Shown here: piece after piece, positions 2,468 to 55,607 of the stretch | Layout: the number at the start of each line of letters is the position of its first letter | How positions within the stretch are numbered: position 1 is the first letter of the stretch | Source: Candidatus Bathyarchaeota archaeon | Lineage (GTDB): Archaea > Thermoproteota > Bathyarchaeia > Bathyarchaeales > Bathycorpusculaceae | Length of the DNA: 64,000 bases | NCBI GenBank assembly: GCA_022865885.1 | Contig: JALHSQ010000127.1 | Location: forward strand, 1 to 64,000 | Direction: 5' to 3' | The notes under the pieces: model-generated | Databases searched by the model: none | The model's input: only the letters and a program-made list of their open reading frames with translations | Told to the model about the DNA's origin: nothing | Made by a program: the position numbers and the translations under genes

Positions 2468-2926
2468 TTATTGGGCTTGAACTGCTTGGCTTATTATTGT
2501 ACCGTCTTTGCAAGCTACTTGCACAGTGTAGAAAGTACCCGTTGTCATGCCGGTGTATTTGATAACCAAGGTAGCTACCGCTTGTGTGGCAAGAGAGTAG
2601 CCTGTACCTGGAATCGCAATGTTAAGTATTGTACAGTTGGCTGTCAAATCAACTCCTTGAATATACACTTTGTCAATTAGAAGATTGGTTCCACCTACGT
2701 TTCTAACTGCAATGCTTATGTTGCCGGTAGTAACAGATGCCCATGTACTGTCGAATGACAAGTGACCCGTCTGCCTTGGGTTTGTTGTTGCCCCTCCGAT
2801 CCATCCCATTACGTAAGCATACACCACGACTCCCGCAGCAACTGCGAGGAGCATTAGAATCAAAGATGCAATGACTGCAGAGAACGCCCTTTTGACGTAA
2901 TCATTTTCCTTAACTTCATGTATCAT
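2468..2926 (-). CDS. Archaeal pilin/archaellin-like protein
   Basis: 152 residues. A leader ending in YVKR precedes AFSAVIASLILMLLAVAAGVVVYAYV, a class III signal and hydrophobic assembly helix. The head domain contains NISIAVRNVGGTNLLIDKVYI, the hydrophobic strand pattern found in archaellin-like subunits, and several N-X-T sites. It is the first gene of the minus-strand pilus operon. A weak TATA-like element (minus strand CATTATAATC) lies about 30-40 bases upstream, near 2955-2965. It is likely the major filament subunit; whether the filament is an archaellum or an adhesive pilus is not decided by the sequence. Confidence 0.8.
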   Translation of the reverse strand: MIHEVKENDYVKRAFSAVIASLILMLLAVAAGVVVYAYVMGWIGGATTNPRQTGHLSFDSTWASVTTGNISIAVRNVGGTNLLIDKVYIQGVDLTANCTILNIAIPGTGYSLATQAVATLVIKYTGMTTGTFYTVQVACKDGTIISQAVQAQ

Positions 2927-3138
2927 TCACCTTGTCTCAGAAATGAGGCATTTACGATTATAATGGTTATGAAGGGAGAATATGAATCACAGATACATAG
3001 AAGAAGCGACCTGAGCCTACTGGAAGTAGACTCTTCACAGCCATCAGACAAGTGTCAACAGAGTACATATGATAAAAGCATGATCGGCAAACCACTGATG
3101 ATAACAAAGCAAACCGAAACGGCGCAAGCATGTTCTCT

Positions 3139-3146
3139 TTTATAAA
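3139..3146 (+). promoter_or_regulatory. TATA box of the dehydrogenase-pxp operon
   Basis: TTTATAAA lies 41 bases before the ATG at 3187, putting transcription start near 3165-3170. An in-frame ATG at 3130 would lie upstream of this box and therefore outside the transcript, which is why 3187 was chosen as the start. Confidence 0.6.
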
Positions 3147-3186
3147 GCTAAACATGCCAATCAGTGGAAATAGAGGAATCACTAAG

Positions 3187-4248
3187 ATGAGAAAAGTGAA
3201 GATAGCCCTCTATGGAGTAGGTGCTGTTGGCAGTCTGATTGCGAAGTTCCTGCTGGAAAAAGAAGGAGCAGACATTGTAAGCGCAATTGACGTAGCCAAA
3301 CACAAAGTCGGCAAAGACTTGGGTGAAGTTCTCGGCTTAGAAAAACAACTGGGAATAAAAGTCTCAGCCGATGCAAACTCACAACTGTCAAAGACAAATC
3401 CGGACATAGCCATTCACGCAACCTCATCTTTTCTGAAAGACACATACCCGCAAATAGCCTCCATCATCGAAAACAACGTCAACGTTGTATCCACATGCGA
3501 GGAACTCGTGTACCCAAAAACCACAGGACCCAAACTCGCAAAGAAGCTAGACACATTAGCTAAGAAACACGACGTAACGGTGCTGGGCACAGGCATAAAC
3601 CCTGGCTTCCTAATGGACACCCTCGTAATAACACTGACTGCACCCTGCCAGAAGATAGAGAAAATCAAAGCAACGAGAGTCATGAACGCTGCAACGAGGC
3701 GATTACCATTCCAGAAAAAAGTAGGCGCAGGCCTAAGCATCAAAGAGTTCAAACAGAAAATCGAGAACAAAGAAATCACAGGACATGTTGGACTTGAACA
3801 GTCCATCACGATGATAGCTGATGCTTTGGCCTGGCGACTTGACAAGGTAGTAATTGAACCGGCCAAACCAGTAGTTGCCAAGAAGGATGTTGAAAGTGAA
3901 TACCTAAAAACAAAGGCTGGAGATGTTGCTGGCCTGCAGCAGAAGGCGGAAGGCATCATGAAAGGTAGAGAGGTCATAGTTCTGGATTTTCAAGCATACG
4001 TTGGTGCTGAGGAAGAATATGATGACATCACGATCATGGGCGTCCCAAACATCAGGCAAAAAATTCAACCATGTGTTCACGGTGACATCGGCACGATAGC
4101 GATGGTTGTCAACGCAATTCCAAAGGTGATTAACGCGCCTGCTGGCCTCCTTACCATGAGAGACTTGCCAGTTCCATCAGCCACAATCGGAGACATGAGA
4201 AAATACATCACAGCCTACAACCAACCGCAAAGTAGGAGATCACATTGA
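3187..4248 (+). CDS. Dihydrodipicolinate reductase-like / 2,4-diaminopentanoate dehydrogenase-like oxidoreductase
   Basis: 353 residues from the ATG at 3187. It starts with MRKVKIALYGVGAVGS, a Rossmann GXGXXG nucleotide-binding loop at residues 10-15, followed by the KVGKDLGEVLGL segment typical of the 2,4-diaminopentanoate dehydrogenase (Ord) branch of the DapB-like fold. A GTGINPGFLMD motif lies mid-protein. Relatives oxidatively deaminate amino acids with NAD(P)+. The stop TGA overlaps the TTG start of pxpA, so it is co-translated with the 5-oxoprolinase genes. The substrate is unknown; a link to amino-acid or cyclic-amide catabolism is inferred from the operon. Confidence 0.8.
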   Translation: MRKVKIALYGVGAVGSLIAKFLLEKEGADIVSAIDVAKHKVGKDLGEVLGLEKQLGIKVSADANSQLSKTNPDIAIHATSSFLKDTYPQIASIIENNVNVVSTCEELVYPKTTGPKLAKKLDTLAKKHDVTVLGTGINPGFLMDTLVITLTAPCQKIEKIKATRVMNAATRRLPFQKKVGAGLSIKEFKQKIENKEITGHVGLEQSITMIADALAWRLDKVVIEPAKPVVAKKDVESEYLKTKAGDVAGLQQKAEGIMKGREVIVLDFQAYVGAEEEYDDITIMGVPNIRQKIQPCVHGDIGTIAMVVNAIPKVINAPAGLLTMRDLPVPSATIGDMRKYITAYNQPQSRRSH

Positions 4249-51968: not shown

Positions 51969-52724
51969 TTATTCTGTTTCGATTCTTGGAGCCAAGTAGA
52001 ATACGAGGCGCCCTTCTTTCGGTTGTGGAAAGTCAAGCTTTACAGGCATGTCGGATGAGAATTCTAGCGTGGCTATGTCGGATGTCGCGGATGCTGATTT
52101 GATGATTTCTGTTAGGTAGCTTAGGCTGAAGGTTGCTTTGGATGGTTCTTTCACTTCCAAGTCCAGTAGAGTGTCGCTTCCTTTCTGGATTGTTATCGTG
52201 GCACCCATGAGGTCGCCTGCCGCGGTGAAAACAAGCTTTTCAGGATCTGCCTCAAGTCGGACATGGTCACTTACAAGTTGAGCGTCTTCAATTGCCCGGC
52301 TTAGCCCGTCTGTTGTGGCTTTGGCCTTGACGTTGAATGTGAGTTTGGGTGTAGGCACTTCTTCCTCTGATGCTTCAAGAGTCGGCATCGTAAAGTTTCG
52401 CTCGTATTTCCCCGTTATTCTTACCTGTAGGCGTGCAGTTTTTTCGTCGAGAGAGAGTTCCACTATTTCATCTTTGGTTGCCCTCTTAAGCAGCTTCAGC
52501 AGTTCGGTTATGTTTATGCACATTTTTGTCGGCGCTGTACACTCGTATTCCTCGAAAACGGTTTTAGACCACTCGAAGTCTATCATGGCGACACGTGAGG
52601 GATCCATTGCTCGGAGTTTTAGGCCTTCTTGATCGAGCTTGAATGTTCCTTCGTCAACGAGGATTGAGATGGATGCAATCATGTCTCTCAGGAGCTTGGC
52701 ATCCGCGACCTTGAGTTTGAACAT
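51969..52724 (-). CDS. pcn: Sliding clamp PCNA
   Basis: 251 residues from the ATG at 52724 (MFKLKVADAKLLRDM); a GGTG-type ribosome-binding site lies about 8 bases before it. Central LKLRAMDPSRVAMIDF and the interdomain LTFNVKAKATTDGLSRAIED; C-terminal LVFYLAPRIE. Trimeric ring that tethers polymerases and other PIP-box proteins to DNA. Only one PCNA gene is seen here. Encoded directly upstream of priL. Confidence 0.96.
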   Translation of the reverse strand: MFKLKVADAKLLRDMIASISILVDEGTFKLDQEGLKLRAMDPSRVAMIDFEWSKTVFEEYECTAPTKMCINITELLKLLKRATKDEIVELSLDEKTARLQVRITGKYERNFTMPTLEASEEEVPTPKLTFNVKAKATTDGLSRAIEDAQLVSDHVRLEADPEKLVFTAAGDLMGATITIQKGSDTLLDLEVKEPSKATFSLSYLTEIIKSASATSDIATLEFSSDMPVKLDFPQPKEGRLVFYLAPRIETE

Positions 52725-52757
52725 TGAGATCACCTTTCTAGTGGATATGTTCAGTAG

Positions 52758-52965: not shown

Positions 52966-53094
52966 TTAGTGCATAGTTCTATGAGTATTCTCTGAATGGG
53001 TAGTTGCACTTCGTGCATCGCCGAGGCTTTCAGCCTCTTTTCTAATTTCAGTCATTTCCTGAACCTCTACGGCACATTTAGGGCATAATTTGGC
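52966..53094 (-). pseudogene. N-terminal half of a split integrase-like frame (candidate int(N))
   Basis: Minus-strand frame of 42 codons (AKLCPKCAVEVQEMTEIRK, then a THSENTHR stretch lying inside the 43-bp repeat, then a stop). A stop precedes it and no start codon is seen, so it is not a working gene. Its THSENTHR end is repeated in the same frame in the partner fragment at 55073-55295, which continues into an integrase-like core-binding domain. The CPKC pair suggests a zinc-binding N-terminus. Assignment rests on the arrangement, not on catalytic motifs. Confidence 0.45.
52978..53020. repeat. 43-bp direct repeat, candidate att site (distal copy)
   Basis: Matches 55253-55295 at 39 of 43 positions, with the first 21 bases identical. 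On the minus strand it encodes RCTKCNYPFREYS-stop, i.e. a second copy of the 3' end of the TFS gene; similarity to TFS stops exactly at the repeat edge (53020). Confidence 0.75.
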
Positions 53095-53204
53095 TTAAAA
53101 ATGTTTCTCTCCAGCTTCAAGCTGCAATACCCGCGGGACTAAACTTCTTCCACAAATGATAAATTCAGAGACAACTGAAGAGAACAACCAGAGTGGTGCA
53201 AGGA

Positions 53205-54020
53205 ATGAGATGTTACTATCACCCAAAAGAGGAAGCTGTAGCCCTCTGCATGTCGTGTGGAAAGGGGATATGTCAACAGTGCACAGTCCTTGTCGAAGGA
53301 AATAGCCACTGCAGAACATGCGTTGAAACGCGTGGTATCGCAAACCAGATGGCCCAAACTGCGATTCCAAAGCCAGCAGGGGTTCCGAGCAAGACACCGT
53401 TCATCATTGGCGGTGTTGGGGCAATCATAAGCGGAGTCGCAGCGGTTCTCTCGATCTTTGGAGGAATCGGATCACTCTGGCTGTTCGGGTTCTACGGTTT
53501 ATACTCCTCGATTGTATTTTTCAGCATGATAAGTGGTGTGTTACTGGCTGTTGGCTTGATTTTGGCGGGCATAGGATACAAAGGAATCAAGACCAACTAT
53601 GGTCTAAGTATAGGAACCGCAGGTTTTGCTCTGGGTATTGTGTCTTGCGTGTTCTTTCTAATTGAAAATGCGCTCGTCATTATAGCACGTTCTTCTAATT
53701 ACTATTATTACTCCTACAACCCATGGTACCTTGCCCCTCCCATAATTGCCATGATAGCGTTGGAGTTGTTTGCTGCGACGCAGATTCTCTGGGGAGTCGC
53801 TCACATTAACTCTCGGAAATACACCGGAAATGGCGGACTTGGAATGTCAGCTGGAATAATACTTATCATTTCAGGGGCGTTTACTGCTTCCCTACTACTA
53901 GCTTTTGTTGGCATGATAATGTTCCTTGTGGGCATGATTCTCGCGATGATAGTGTTTCAGACCTCAAAGATACCAAGAAGGGACTATGCGAAAGACACAC
54001 GACTTGCACCTCCTCCTTAA
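53205..54020 (+). CDS. B-box zinc-finger membrane protein
   Basis: 271 residues from the ATG at 53205 (a GTG at 53193 is an alternative). Residues about 1-45 are a B-box-type zinc finger (CYYHPKEEAVALCMSCGKGI, CQQC, HCRTC). After a Pro-rich linker come about six transmembrane helices (about 70-93, 98-125, 130-155, 178-200, 210-235, 238-255) and a short polar tail. A general protein-binding membrane module; function unknown. Lies inside the candidate integrated element, so it may be cargo. Confidence 0.68.
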   Translation: MRCYYHPKEEAVALCMSCGKGICQQCTVLVEGNSHCRTCVETRGIANQMAQTAIPKPAGVPSKTPFIIGGVGAIISGVAAVLSIFGGIGSLWLFGFYGLYSSIVFFSMISGVLLAVGLILAGIGYKGIKTNYGLSIGTAGFALGIVSCVFFLIENALVIIARSSNYYYYSYNPWYLAPPIIAMIALELFAATQILWGVAHINSRKYTGNGGLGMSAGIILIISGAFTASLLLAFVGMIMFLVGMILAMIVFQTSKIPRRDYAKDTRLAPPP

Positions 54021-54070
54021 CGCGTGCTCAGCTTATGCGCGCGCTTTTTAGCGTGACCTATCCCGAGCTT

Positions 54071-54166
54071 CGCTATGATGCGAATTGCGATGTCAATTAT
54101 GATCTGAAGATTGATATCAAAGACATCGCTATAGTTGCAAGACACTTCGGCGAGACAAGCCCATAG
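54071..54166 (+). pseudogene. Dockerin-like repeat remnant
   Basis: A 31-codon open stretch ending at TAG reads as a calcium-binding dockerin repeat: CDVNYDLKIDIKDIAIVARHF, with the Asp/Asn pattern and the IKDIAIVARHFG helix. Nothing upstream in this frame before 54071 has recognisable protein character, and it is not in frame with the B-box gene. It is likely the 3' end of a lost secreted dockerin protein. Confidence 0.5.
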
Positions 54167-54325
54167 CTTTAGACAAGCATGCACGACAAAGCAACCACAG
54201 GAAGTATATAGAAACGAACACAAGGCAAACGTTGCTATCTATGAAGCTAACAACGTGAGCGCAGTCTCTTGTTCTGCTCTCTTGCTTTGAAGACCTTAAA
54301 TCCGAGGTCTGACAATTTCATCTTG

Positions 54326-54790
54326 ATGAGCCAGACGAGAAGGCCCGGACGGCCACAAGAATGGGTTCTGAACGAAGAGATCATTGAAACACACAGGTTA
54401 TCGACTGAATTGAAGACGCAGAACCCTAGGGCACACTGGTCTGCCATCAAAGACCTGTTGAAAACTGAATTGGAGCAGACAGGGAGAAGAGACCTTCTTT
54501 CAAAGCTAGACAAGCTATGGGGTCTCGTGAAACAGGTCATCCCATTACCGCCGGAGTGCATCTGTGGAAATAGGGCATATTCTTACACTTACAGAAAGGT
54601 GGATGATGAGAGAGAGCATTACTGGGAGATCTTCGCTAGGTGCACAAATAGGAAGTGTCGTTATATGCGAAGATTCTTGCCCTCAGCAAGCTACAGCTGG
54701 TCACGGCCCAAATCCATCATTAGAGAGCTTGAGAAGATGCCCACTTTCTATGAGCTGGACGGTCAGAAGGTGGAAGGCGAGAGACGATAA
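54326..54790 (+). CDS. Hypothetical zinc-binding protein with AT-hook-like N-terminus
   Basis: 154 residues from the ATG at 54326 (MSQTRRPGRPQEWVLNEEI). RRPGRPQ resembles an AT-hook. A helical part (about 15-75) is followed by CICGNRAYSYTYRKVDDERE and EIFARCTNRKCRYMRRF, four Cys spaced as a zinc ribbon. Probably a nucleic-acid-binding protein; the family is not recognised. It is the second gene inside the repeat-flanked segment and a candidate element gene. A TATA-like AGTATATAGAAAC near 54202 lies about 120 bases upstream. Confidence 0.6.
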   Translation: MSQTRRPGRPQEWVLNEEIIETHRLSTELKTQNPRAHWSAIKDLLKTELEQTGRRDLLSKLDKLWGLVKQVIPLPPECICGNRAYSYTYRKVDDEREHYWEIFARCTNRKCRYMRRFLPSASYSWSRPKSIIRELEKMPTFYELDGQKVEGERR

Positions 54791-55072
54791 TTGTGTACTG
54801 TATTATTGAGAAGCATACCAGTTCTATAGGCTGAATTTGTGACAACGTGCTGTCCGATTTGAATTAGCACTGTTTATTGGGAAGCAATGCCGTGTTTACC
54901 ATTTACTGCATCATCGTGACGTTTTGGTTAGGTGTTGCTGGGAGCTCACGCTCGCAGAATTGTACGGTGTACTATAGAGAGCAATCTGCTGTTCAAACCT
55001 TTTCAAGCCAGCAAAAAGCTGGCGGAAGCTGATGACAAGACAAATCCGCAAAAAGTGAGACTCAAGGGCATT
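54791..55072. other. Intergenic stretch within the candidate element
   Basis: No gene supported. If the integrase fragment at 55073-55295 was once complete, its catalytic domain should lie here on the minus strand; I see several stops in all frames and no R...HxxR...Y motif, so that part seems lost. Confidence 0.4.
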
Positions 55073-55295
55073 CTAGGGGTCAATTCTGGCAGCTCTGAAT
55101 CTCAGAGAGTGGGACAAACTGGCAGCGCGCGCAACTCTCGAAGCGGCATGATTCAAAGCAGTAATCAGAGTCTTCAAGTAAGACTCAGAGTAGCCCCTGT
55201 TTCTAAGCTCAAAAGCTAGCTTGACGATCCTTCCCTTAGCAAATTCTGAAAGTCTATGAGTATTCTCTGAATGTGTAACTGCACTTTGTGCATCG
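55073..55295 (-). pseudogene. Integrase-like core-binding fragment (candidate int(C), truncated)
   Basis: From the repeat edge the minus-strand frame reads THSENTHRLSEFAKGRIVKL then AFELRNRGYSESYLKTLITA and ALNHAASRVARA, which matches the N-terminal SAM-like (core-binding) domain of tyrosine recombinases, where an RGYSExTxKxYxxAL pattern is usual. It stops at 55073-55075 without a catalytic domain. The same frame runs through the repeat into the TFS coding region on the other strand frame, so upstream reading here is TFS, not integrase. Confidence 0.45.
55253..55295. repeat. 43-bp direct repeat, candidate att site (TFS-proximal copy)
   Basis: Partner of 52978-53020. It supplies the last 13 codons and stop of the TFS gene (RCTKCSYTFREYS), so integration at this site would keep TFS intact. 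Confidence 0.75.
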
Positions 55296-55607
55296 AAGGA
55301 ACTGTGTTGATGATTCGTCTGCCCCTCTGGTCTGCACTTGCCAAACATAAGCCAGATTGTTCCCACACTTCGGGCACTCCATTCTGACTGTGGGCAACGT
55401 TCGCAGCTTCTGTTCTTCTTTGCCGATAACTGCCACAAATTGCCTAGGGTTTGGTTCGATTGTCTTAACAACCTTCGGTTCAACTTTCTCCCCGGGCGCC
55501 CTTTTCGTGTAGCCGCACTTCAGGCAAGTCATCACAAGTGTTGCGTCTTTGCCTGTCTTTGTCTTCTTAGGCACAAGGCGAGAACCACATTTTGGGCAAA
55601 ATTCCAT
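55254..55607 (-). CDS. tfs: Transcription elongation factor TFS
   Basis: 117 residues. N-terminal zinc ribbon MEFCPKCGSRLVPKK with CLKCGYTK, and C-terminal TFIIS-type ribbon MECPKCGNN, with the catalytic acidic hairpin RGADESSTQF and FLRCTKCSYTFREYS. Stimulates transcript cleavage by stalled RNA polymerase. Its 3' end coincides with a direct repeat duplicated 2.3 kb away, see the repeat entries. Confidence 0.94.
   Translation of the reverse strand: MEFCPKCGSRLVPKKTKTGKDATLVMTCLKCGYTKRAPGEKVEPKVVKTIEPNPRQFVAVIGKEEQKLRTLPTVRMECPKCGNNLAYVWQVQTRGADESSTQFLRCTKCSYTFREYS

Follow-up and report, generated by a model that had tools for sequence, protein, structure and literature searches.

Suicidal (type I) integrases, such as those of SSV1/SSV2, pTN3 and pT26-2, are described as PF16795 enzymes and have been traced to a single event of origin (Badel et al., 2021 review, PMC8371274). 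In these systems the integrase gene carries attP within it and is split upon integration, and the 3′ end of the target is restored. The element described here, inserted at the 3′ end of the gene for transcription factor S (tfs) in Bathyarchaeia, has all three properties. It differs in its enzyme, which is XerA-like and falls in PF00589; in the position of attP, which lies in the first 10–25 codons of the integrase rather than at about codon 64 as annotated in SSV1 D-335; and in its target, which is the protein-coding tfs, unlike those of the SSV-type systems compared.

Protein-coding 3′ ends do serve thaumarchaeal integrated elements, among them EF-2, a Zn-finger gene, an AsnC regulator and others, and there too the coding sequence is restored by element-borne sequence (PMC6563490). 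TFS is not among the targets listed. In the section on these genes none of the protein-coding targets is described with a split integrase, and the one SSV1-like split integrase mentioned, that of NitEve-E3, is treated in a separate section. The first-pass annotation of this locus had taken tRNA genes as the usual targets and tfs as an unusual one. The att of the element is indeed the tfs 3′ end and not a tRNA gene, whereas sister clades use tRNA genes, but the assumption of tRNA genes alone was too strong in view of the protein-coding targets already known for other archaeal integrated elements (PMC6563490). The closest solved relatives of the integrase are XerA of Thermoplasma acidophilum (5hxy) and of Pyrococcus abyssi (4a8e). 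XerA is a chromosomal dif recombinase and is not split, whereas the integrase studied here is split and carries YxxR in place of HxxR.

The insert between tfs and PCNA

The window, meaning the whole stretch of 64,000 nt analysed, lies on contig C72 of G000, a MAG of 2.64 Mb with 7.6% contamination. An insert of 2,275 bp, measured between equivalent points of two 43-nt direct repeats, separates tfs from PCNA (Table 1). The repeats are identical at 39 of 43 positions (91%) and differ at four, and their terminal 21 bases (CATTCAGAGAATACTCATAGA; 55253–55273 in the TFS-proximal copy) are the same in both copies. A search of the 2.64-Mb genome with the 43-bp repeat gave no matches beyond the two copies, the second being found at E 8.6e-11. 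Since the complete tfs lies at 55254–55607 on the minus strand, the copy at 55253–55295 is the TFS-proximal one and that at 52978–53020 is the far one, beside PCNA. The first-pass annotation had reported the coordinates and the identity of the repeats correctly, and its description of one copy as the end of tfs (13 codons and stop) is true of the copy at 55253–55295.

Table 1. Positions of the insert, its repeats and the neighbouring genes in the window
Feature	Position	Strand	Description
PCNA	51969..52733	-	PF00705/PF02747; directly after TFS at relatives' empty site
attR, far repeat	52978..53020	-	flank is PCNA-side host DNA
int(N) fragment MTEIRKEAESLGDARSATTHSENTHR	52978..53055	-	ATG at 53055; end inside attR; aligned to G024 N-half MTETTKEPLGVAAQSATTHSKNT
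B-box cargo gene	53193..54020	+	275 aa; B-box zinc finger and membrane helices; PF00643 0.00096, below cut-off
dockerin-like short frame	54035..54166	+	43 aa; PF00404 E 0.0044, 17.6 vs 22.9 bits cut-off; membership in element not established
zinc/AT-hook cargo gene	54326..54790	+	154 aa; PGRP (AT-hook-like) N-terminus and CxC...C-x4-C zinc motif
int(C) remnant	55073..55252	-	core-binding domain start, recognisable to about 55151; stop at 55073; catalytic domain lost
attL, TFS-proximal repeat	55253..55295	-	last 13 codons and stop of TFS; comparable attL/attB in G050/G145
tfs, transcription factor S	55254..55607	-	complete, 117 aa; PF01096 3.4e-18 and PF02150; integration target

The gene tfs is present in 54 of 61 relatives, and among 133 TFS loci of relatives surveyed across the class, 72 have PCNA 66–378 bp after TFS. 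Because the two genes are adjacent at these loci and are separated by the insert in the window, the ancestral site was clearly empty, with the order TFS–PCNA. It had been proposed at first pass that the idea of an integrated element would fail if relatives without the segment lacked an uninterrupted TFS 3′ end, or if the joined integrase frame showed no integrase similarity. Relatives that lack the segment do have one uninterrupted 3′ end of TFS, and PCNA comes next; with the integrase similarity given below, neither point refuted the idea.

The split integrase and the exchange interval

An element of 1,818 bp occupies the same TFS codons in G050, a genome of another family. There, an intact C-half (292 residues after the att) is followed by an HNH-like ORF, a short N-half, the second att and PCNA. 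The half-frames join at the repeat into one frame of 306 aa with a TTG start, and attP thus lies inside the integrase frame. The joined protein is a tyrosine recombinase (PF00589, 7.2e-23). In G145, of the same genus, the site is uninterrupted; its TFS is 98.5% identical to that of G050 over 344 bp, and the sequence following attR in G050, with PCNA, is 93.8% identical over 2,208 bp. G145 is therefore a precise and near-identical empty site for G050. The att sequences of this pair are attB ACATTCAGAGAGTATTCATAGATATT, attL ACATTCAGAGAGTATTCGTAAACC and attR ACATTTAGAGAGTATTCATAGATATT, all of which contain AGAGAGTATTC. The T/C marker before it and the G/A marker after it switch partners, which places the strand exchange inside these 11 bp of AGAGAGTATTC, at the 3′ end of TFS. 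The last bases and stop of the G050 TFS (TCG TAA) derive from the element. A restored target with an empty site, as expected of suicidal (type I) integration, is hence met by G145 against G050 and by the 72 direct TFS–PCNA neighbours. The pair also offers a ready set of attB, attL and attR, in which the crossover is confined to 11 bp and the whole integrase sequence is at hand.

The G050 element (locus L075) carries little else beside its integrase in 1.8 kb. The HNH-like nuclease ORF lies at 2887–3354 (PHROG HNH endonuclease, 1.1e-6). After integration the int(C) frame, at 1532–2590, extends open for 61 codons into tfs, out of phase with it, and includes an ATG there, so that translation starting within tfs might still yield a near-complete integrase.

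In the window the same layout survives in decayed form. THSENTHR is encoded on the minus strand, in a frame other than that of tfs, by both repeat copies. In the far copy it is preceded by MTEIRKEAESLGDARSAT, with an ATG at 53055 and CPKC just upstream; in the TFS-proximal copy the frame runs on into LSEFAKGRIVKLAFELRNRGYSESYLKTLITALNHAASRV. The shared frame, the N-half at the far repeat and the C-half beside TFS had all been recognised in the first reading of the sequence, as had the loss of the catalytic domain: joined at the repeat, the half-frames give 85 codons and then a stop, so that this domain is absent. The proposed HMM search of the joined frame gave no direct integrase match, and the similarity was instead obtained through homologues. 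G024, a genome of another genus of the family, has an integrase at the same TFS site, and the joined frame matches its core-binding domain with E 4e-13. The int(C) remnant matches G024 with E 5e-13 and G050 with E 7e-8, and the G024 integrase matches that of G050, the full tyrosine recombinase, with E 5e-20. Since only about 60 codons are left and no HMM matches them directly, the identity of the window frame as an integrase rests on these homologues.

From the window alone, with frames that are short and have no HMM support, the repeat could pass for a tfs tail copied by segmental duplication, and the integrase halves for chance open frames. This reading is refuted, and we give it practically no credence, as other genera and another family have a real integrase at these codons to which the halves are homologous, and as an intact joined gene (G050) and a precise empty site (G145) exist. 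With the repeats, both half-frames, the empty sites, the G145/G050 pair, the joined integrase of 306 aa and the 11-bp exchange interval all observed, we conclude with high confidence that 52978–55295 is a decayed remnant of a small integrative element that split its own integrase. A circular form, which is inferred, would have carried a copy of the last tfs codons within the first codons of its integrase gene. The integrase, whose own catalysis is likewise inferred, would have carried out the exchange between this attP and the 3′ end of the host tfs. A complete tfs was thereby restored and a second copy of the tail left as attR. The integrase gene was cut in the process, its C-part ending up beside tfs and its N-part at the far end, and an element whose integrase gene is split in two would be unable to excise itself. 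Later the C-part in the window lost its catalytic domain, with the zinc-protein gene retained under purifying selection.

The enzyme family and its targets

The arrangement in which C- and N-parts stand at opposite ends, each overlapping an att, is met in the window, in G024, in G050 and in relatives at tRNA and RNase P RNA genes, and it resembles that of SSV, where attP is in the N-terminal part of the integrase and the gene is split after integration. In SSV1 the annotated integration site lies inside ORF D-335, and genuine PF16795 integrases occur in the class, so that membership of the element in the SSV integrase family (PF16795, Phage_integr_3), as a fusellovirus-like provirus, had to be weighed. 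We regard it as very improbable. PF00589 was matched by 14 of 14 family members and PF16795 by none of the 14 even at E 10, while the positive control, D-335 from the SSV1 database record, matched PF16795 at 1.5e-61. Profile comparison of the family with D-335 detected no relation (probability 4.5%), and a profile search of the PDB gave XerA first with no SSV1 integrase among the results. G050 and G044 are absent among the genomes listed with PF16795 matches, and the element has no capsid or AAA+ gene. The description 'SSV-type' in the first-pass annotation thus stands for arrangement and mechanism and fails for the enzyme family, which is XerA-like PF00589. Judged by these comparisons, the enzyme is a lineage distinct from the known self-splitting integrases, and what it represents is SSV-type (suicidal) integration at a protein-coding gene, brought about by a second lineage of recombinases, with the catalysis of attP × attB recombination inferred.

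XerA 5hxy and 4a8e are the nearest solved structures to the G050 integrase both by sequence and by fold, and NCBIfam XerA_Arch matches it at 1.7e-32, under the model's own cut-off. A structure model of the G050 integrase (pLDDT 87.9, pTM 0.64) superposes on XerA with a whole-chain TM-score of only about 0.5 and a large rmsd, the two domains probably being placed differently. The catalytic set R, K, R, H, Y aligns with that of XerA; in the alignment, nearly all family members have YxxR where HxxR is expected.

The frames of the nearest relatives run out of the 3′ ends of tRNA-Ala, -Thr, -Gln, -Leu or -Cys genes or of archaeal RNase P RNA. At the 3′ end of RNase P RNA (Rfam RF00373), relatives start inside or just after the gene in eight loci (L084, L095, L101, L103, L223, L227, L228 and L229). 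Relatives are likewise seen at this end in L388 and L389. Four loci are demonstrably split, each having a second 27-bp att copy with a short N-half: at tRNA-Ala in Ca. Bathyarchaeum tardum (L219), at tRNA-Thr in two loci (L220 and L224), and at RNase P RNA in L223, where the second copy and the N-half lie 5 kb on. As L223 is split there and several relatives share the position, RNase P RNA is a repeated target of a split integrase. These relatives resemble the TFS type in clade, short N-half and splitting; they differ in having RNA genes as targets and 27-bp shared ends, against the protein-coding tfs.

In a tree built without the att codons, the TFS integrases form one clade (support 100/99), and the RNase P and tRNA types cluster apart. 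All three fall within one group of 36 rows (100/100), apart from integrases with a long N-terminal part, although some tRNA-adjacent short integrases fall with the latter, outside the group. The long-N sister group (L239–L299) has 370–490 aa with a long extra N-terminal part, zinc-ribbon-like in L035, L036 and L107. Its members appear unsplit, and several copies occur in many genomes of the class.

We consider it likely that self-splitting arose at least twice, with Bathyarchaeia holding the second family, XerA-like PF00589 enzymes with attP in the first codons whose targets diversified from tRNA to RNase P RNA and tfs. That splitting arose independently is an inference from membership of the two families, without a rooted superfamily tree, and PF00589 and PF16795 share the tyrosine-recombinase fold. 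If true, a second origin would contradict the single-origin view of the 2021 review (PMC8371274). With a split XerA-like family, self-splitting would become an evolutionary outcome that can recur, and there would be an independent system in which to ask what favours it. As the clades sort by target (tRNA, RNase P RNA, TFS), closely related enzymes are available for direct tests of target switching, which has long been debated.

In the literature searched, neither TFS nor RNase P RNA was found as an archaeal target, nor was a suicidal family of PF00589. These two core genes as targets were thus not found described, which is weak evidence since subscription papers are poorly covered. No relative was found in IMG/VR with the G050 integrase as query, no TFS-type integrase in intact unintegrated form or as a free circle was found in IMG/VR or the genome contigs, and annotated phage records yielded just remote integrases of <28% identity among the best matches listed. 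A profile search of IMG/VR returned one viral contig (L296, IMGVR_UViG_3300032070_000415) with a family integrase at 49–1017 overlapping tRNA-Gln, which links the integrase family to a predicted virus.

Other tfs loci and the cargo

G024, whose copy is also decayed, is arranged as the window is, with repeat copies alike at 31 of 39 positions, a C-half with a recognisable core-binding domain, and an N-half that begins MTETTKEPLG. Its outer att (L040, contig C188) lies about 1,033 bp past TFS and has beyond it another core-binding start (KHCAFEGRVLTAVLKLTERGYSEA), which suggests tandem or repeated integration at one site. G044 has decayed C-half sequence at TFS with PCNA beyond. G029 and G152 have possible C-half starts at TFS, with a score that comes mostly from the TFS alternative frame, and G108 was rejected because it has that frame only. 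The other TFS–PCNA gaps of 0.8–2.5 kb (besides G050 and G044) contain no integrase and no second repeat of >=27/42, and were left uncounted.

The zinc-protein gene is also present in the G024 element, 80% identical and in the same place and orientation. With a dN/dS of about 0.09 between G000 and G024, it is under purifying selection between the two. The copies in G000 and G024 may represent a single old insertion, since inherited and domesticated for the zinc gene, and not separate insertions: the internal order is the same, the zinc gene is as similar as TFS itself (80%), its dN/dS is low, and the C-half DNA aligns straight on from TFS. Against this, G061, a congener of G024, has an empty site with 381 bp to PCNA, and the zinc gene stands at unrelated loci in four other genomes and so can move separately. 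A single inherited insertion remains a serious possibility, to which we give slightly less than an even chance; the choice bears on the history of the element and leaves its mechanism untouched.

Of the cargo named at first pass, the B-box membrane protein and the zinc/AT-hook protein are real ORFs, and the dockerin remnant is a sub-threshold match not to be relied on. For the B-box protein, a search of 90 other genomes in the family at E 1e-10 gave no homologue, and it was rejected as conserved cargo. The zinc protein has no Pfam, PHROG, NCBIfam or fold match; from its PGRP motif and zinc ligands we can only guess at a DNA-binding regulator, and the function of the cargo is unknown. Among 257 genomes of the class, 6 carry the zinc-protein gene, and outside TFS elements it is found at unrelated loci. 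With its own flanks it recurs at such loci in a few genomes of the family (L212, L214, L215, L216 and L217), like a mobile single-gene cassette. In G024 (L040), the 6 kb after the second core-binding start hold UDP-sugar dehydrogenase/epimerase-like and glycosyltransferase-like genes, and PCNA lies 7 kb after TFS.
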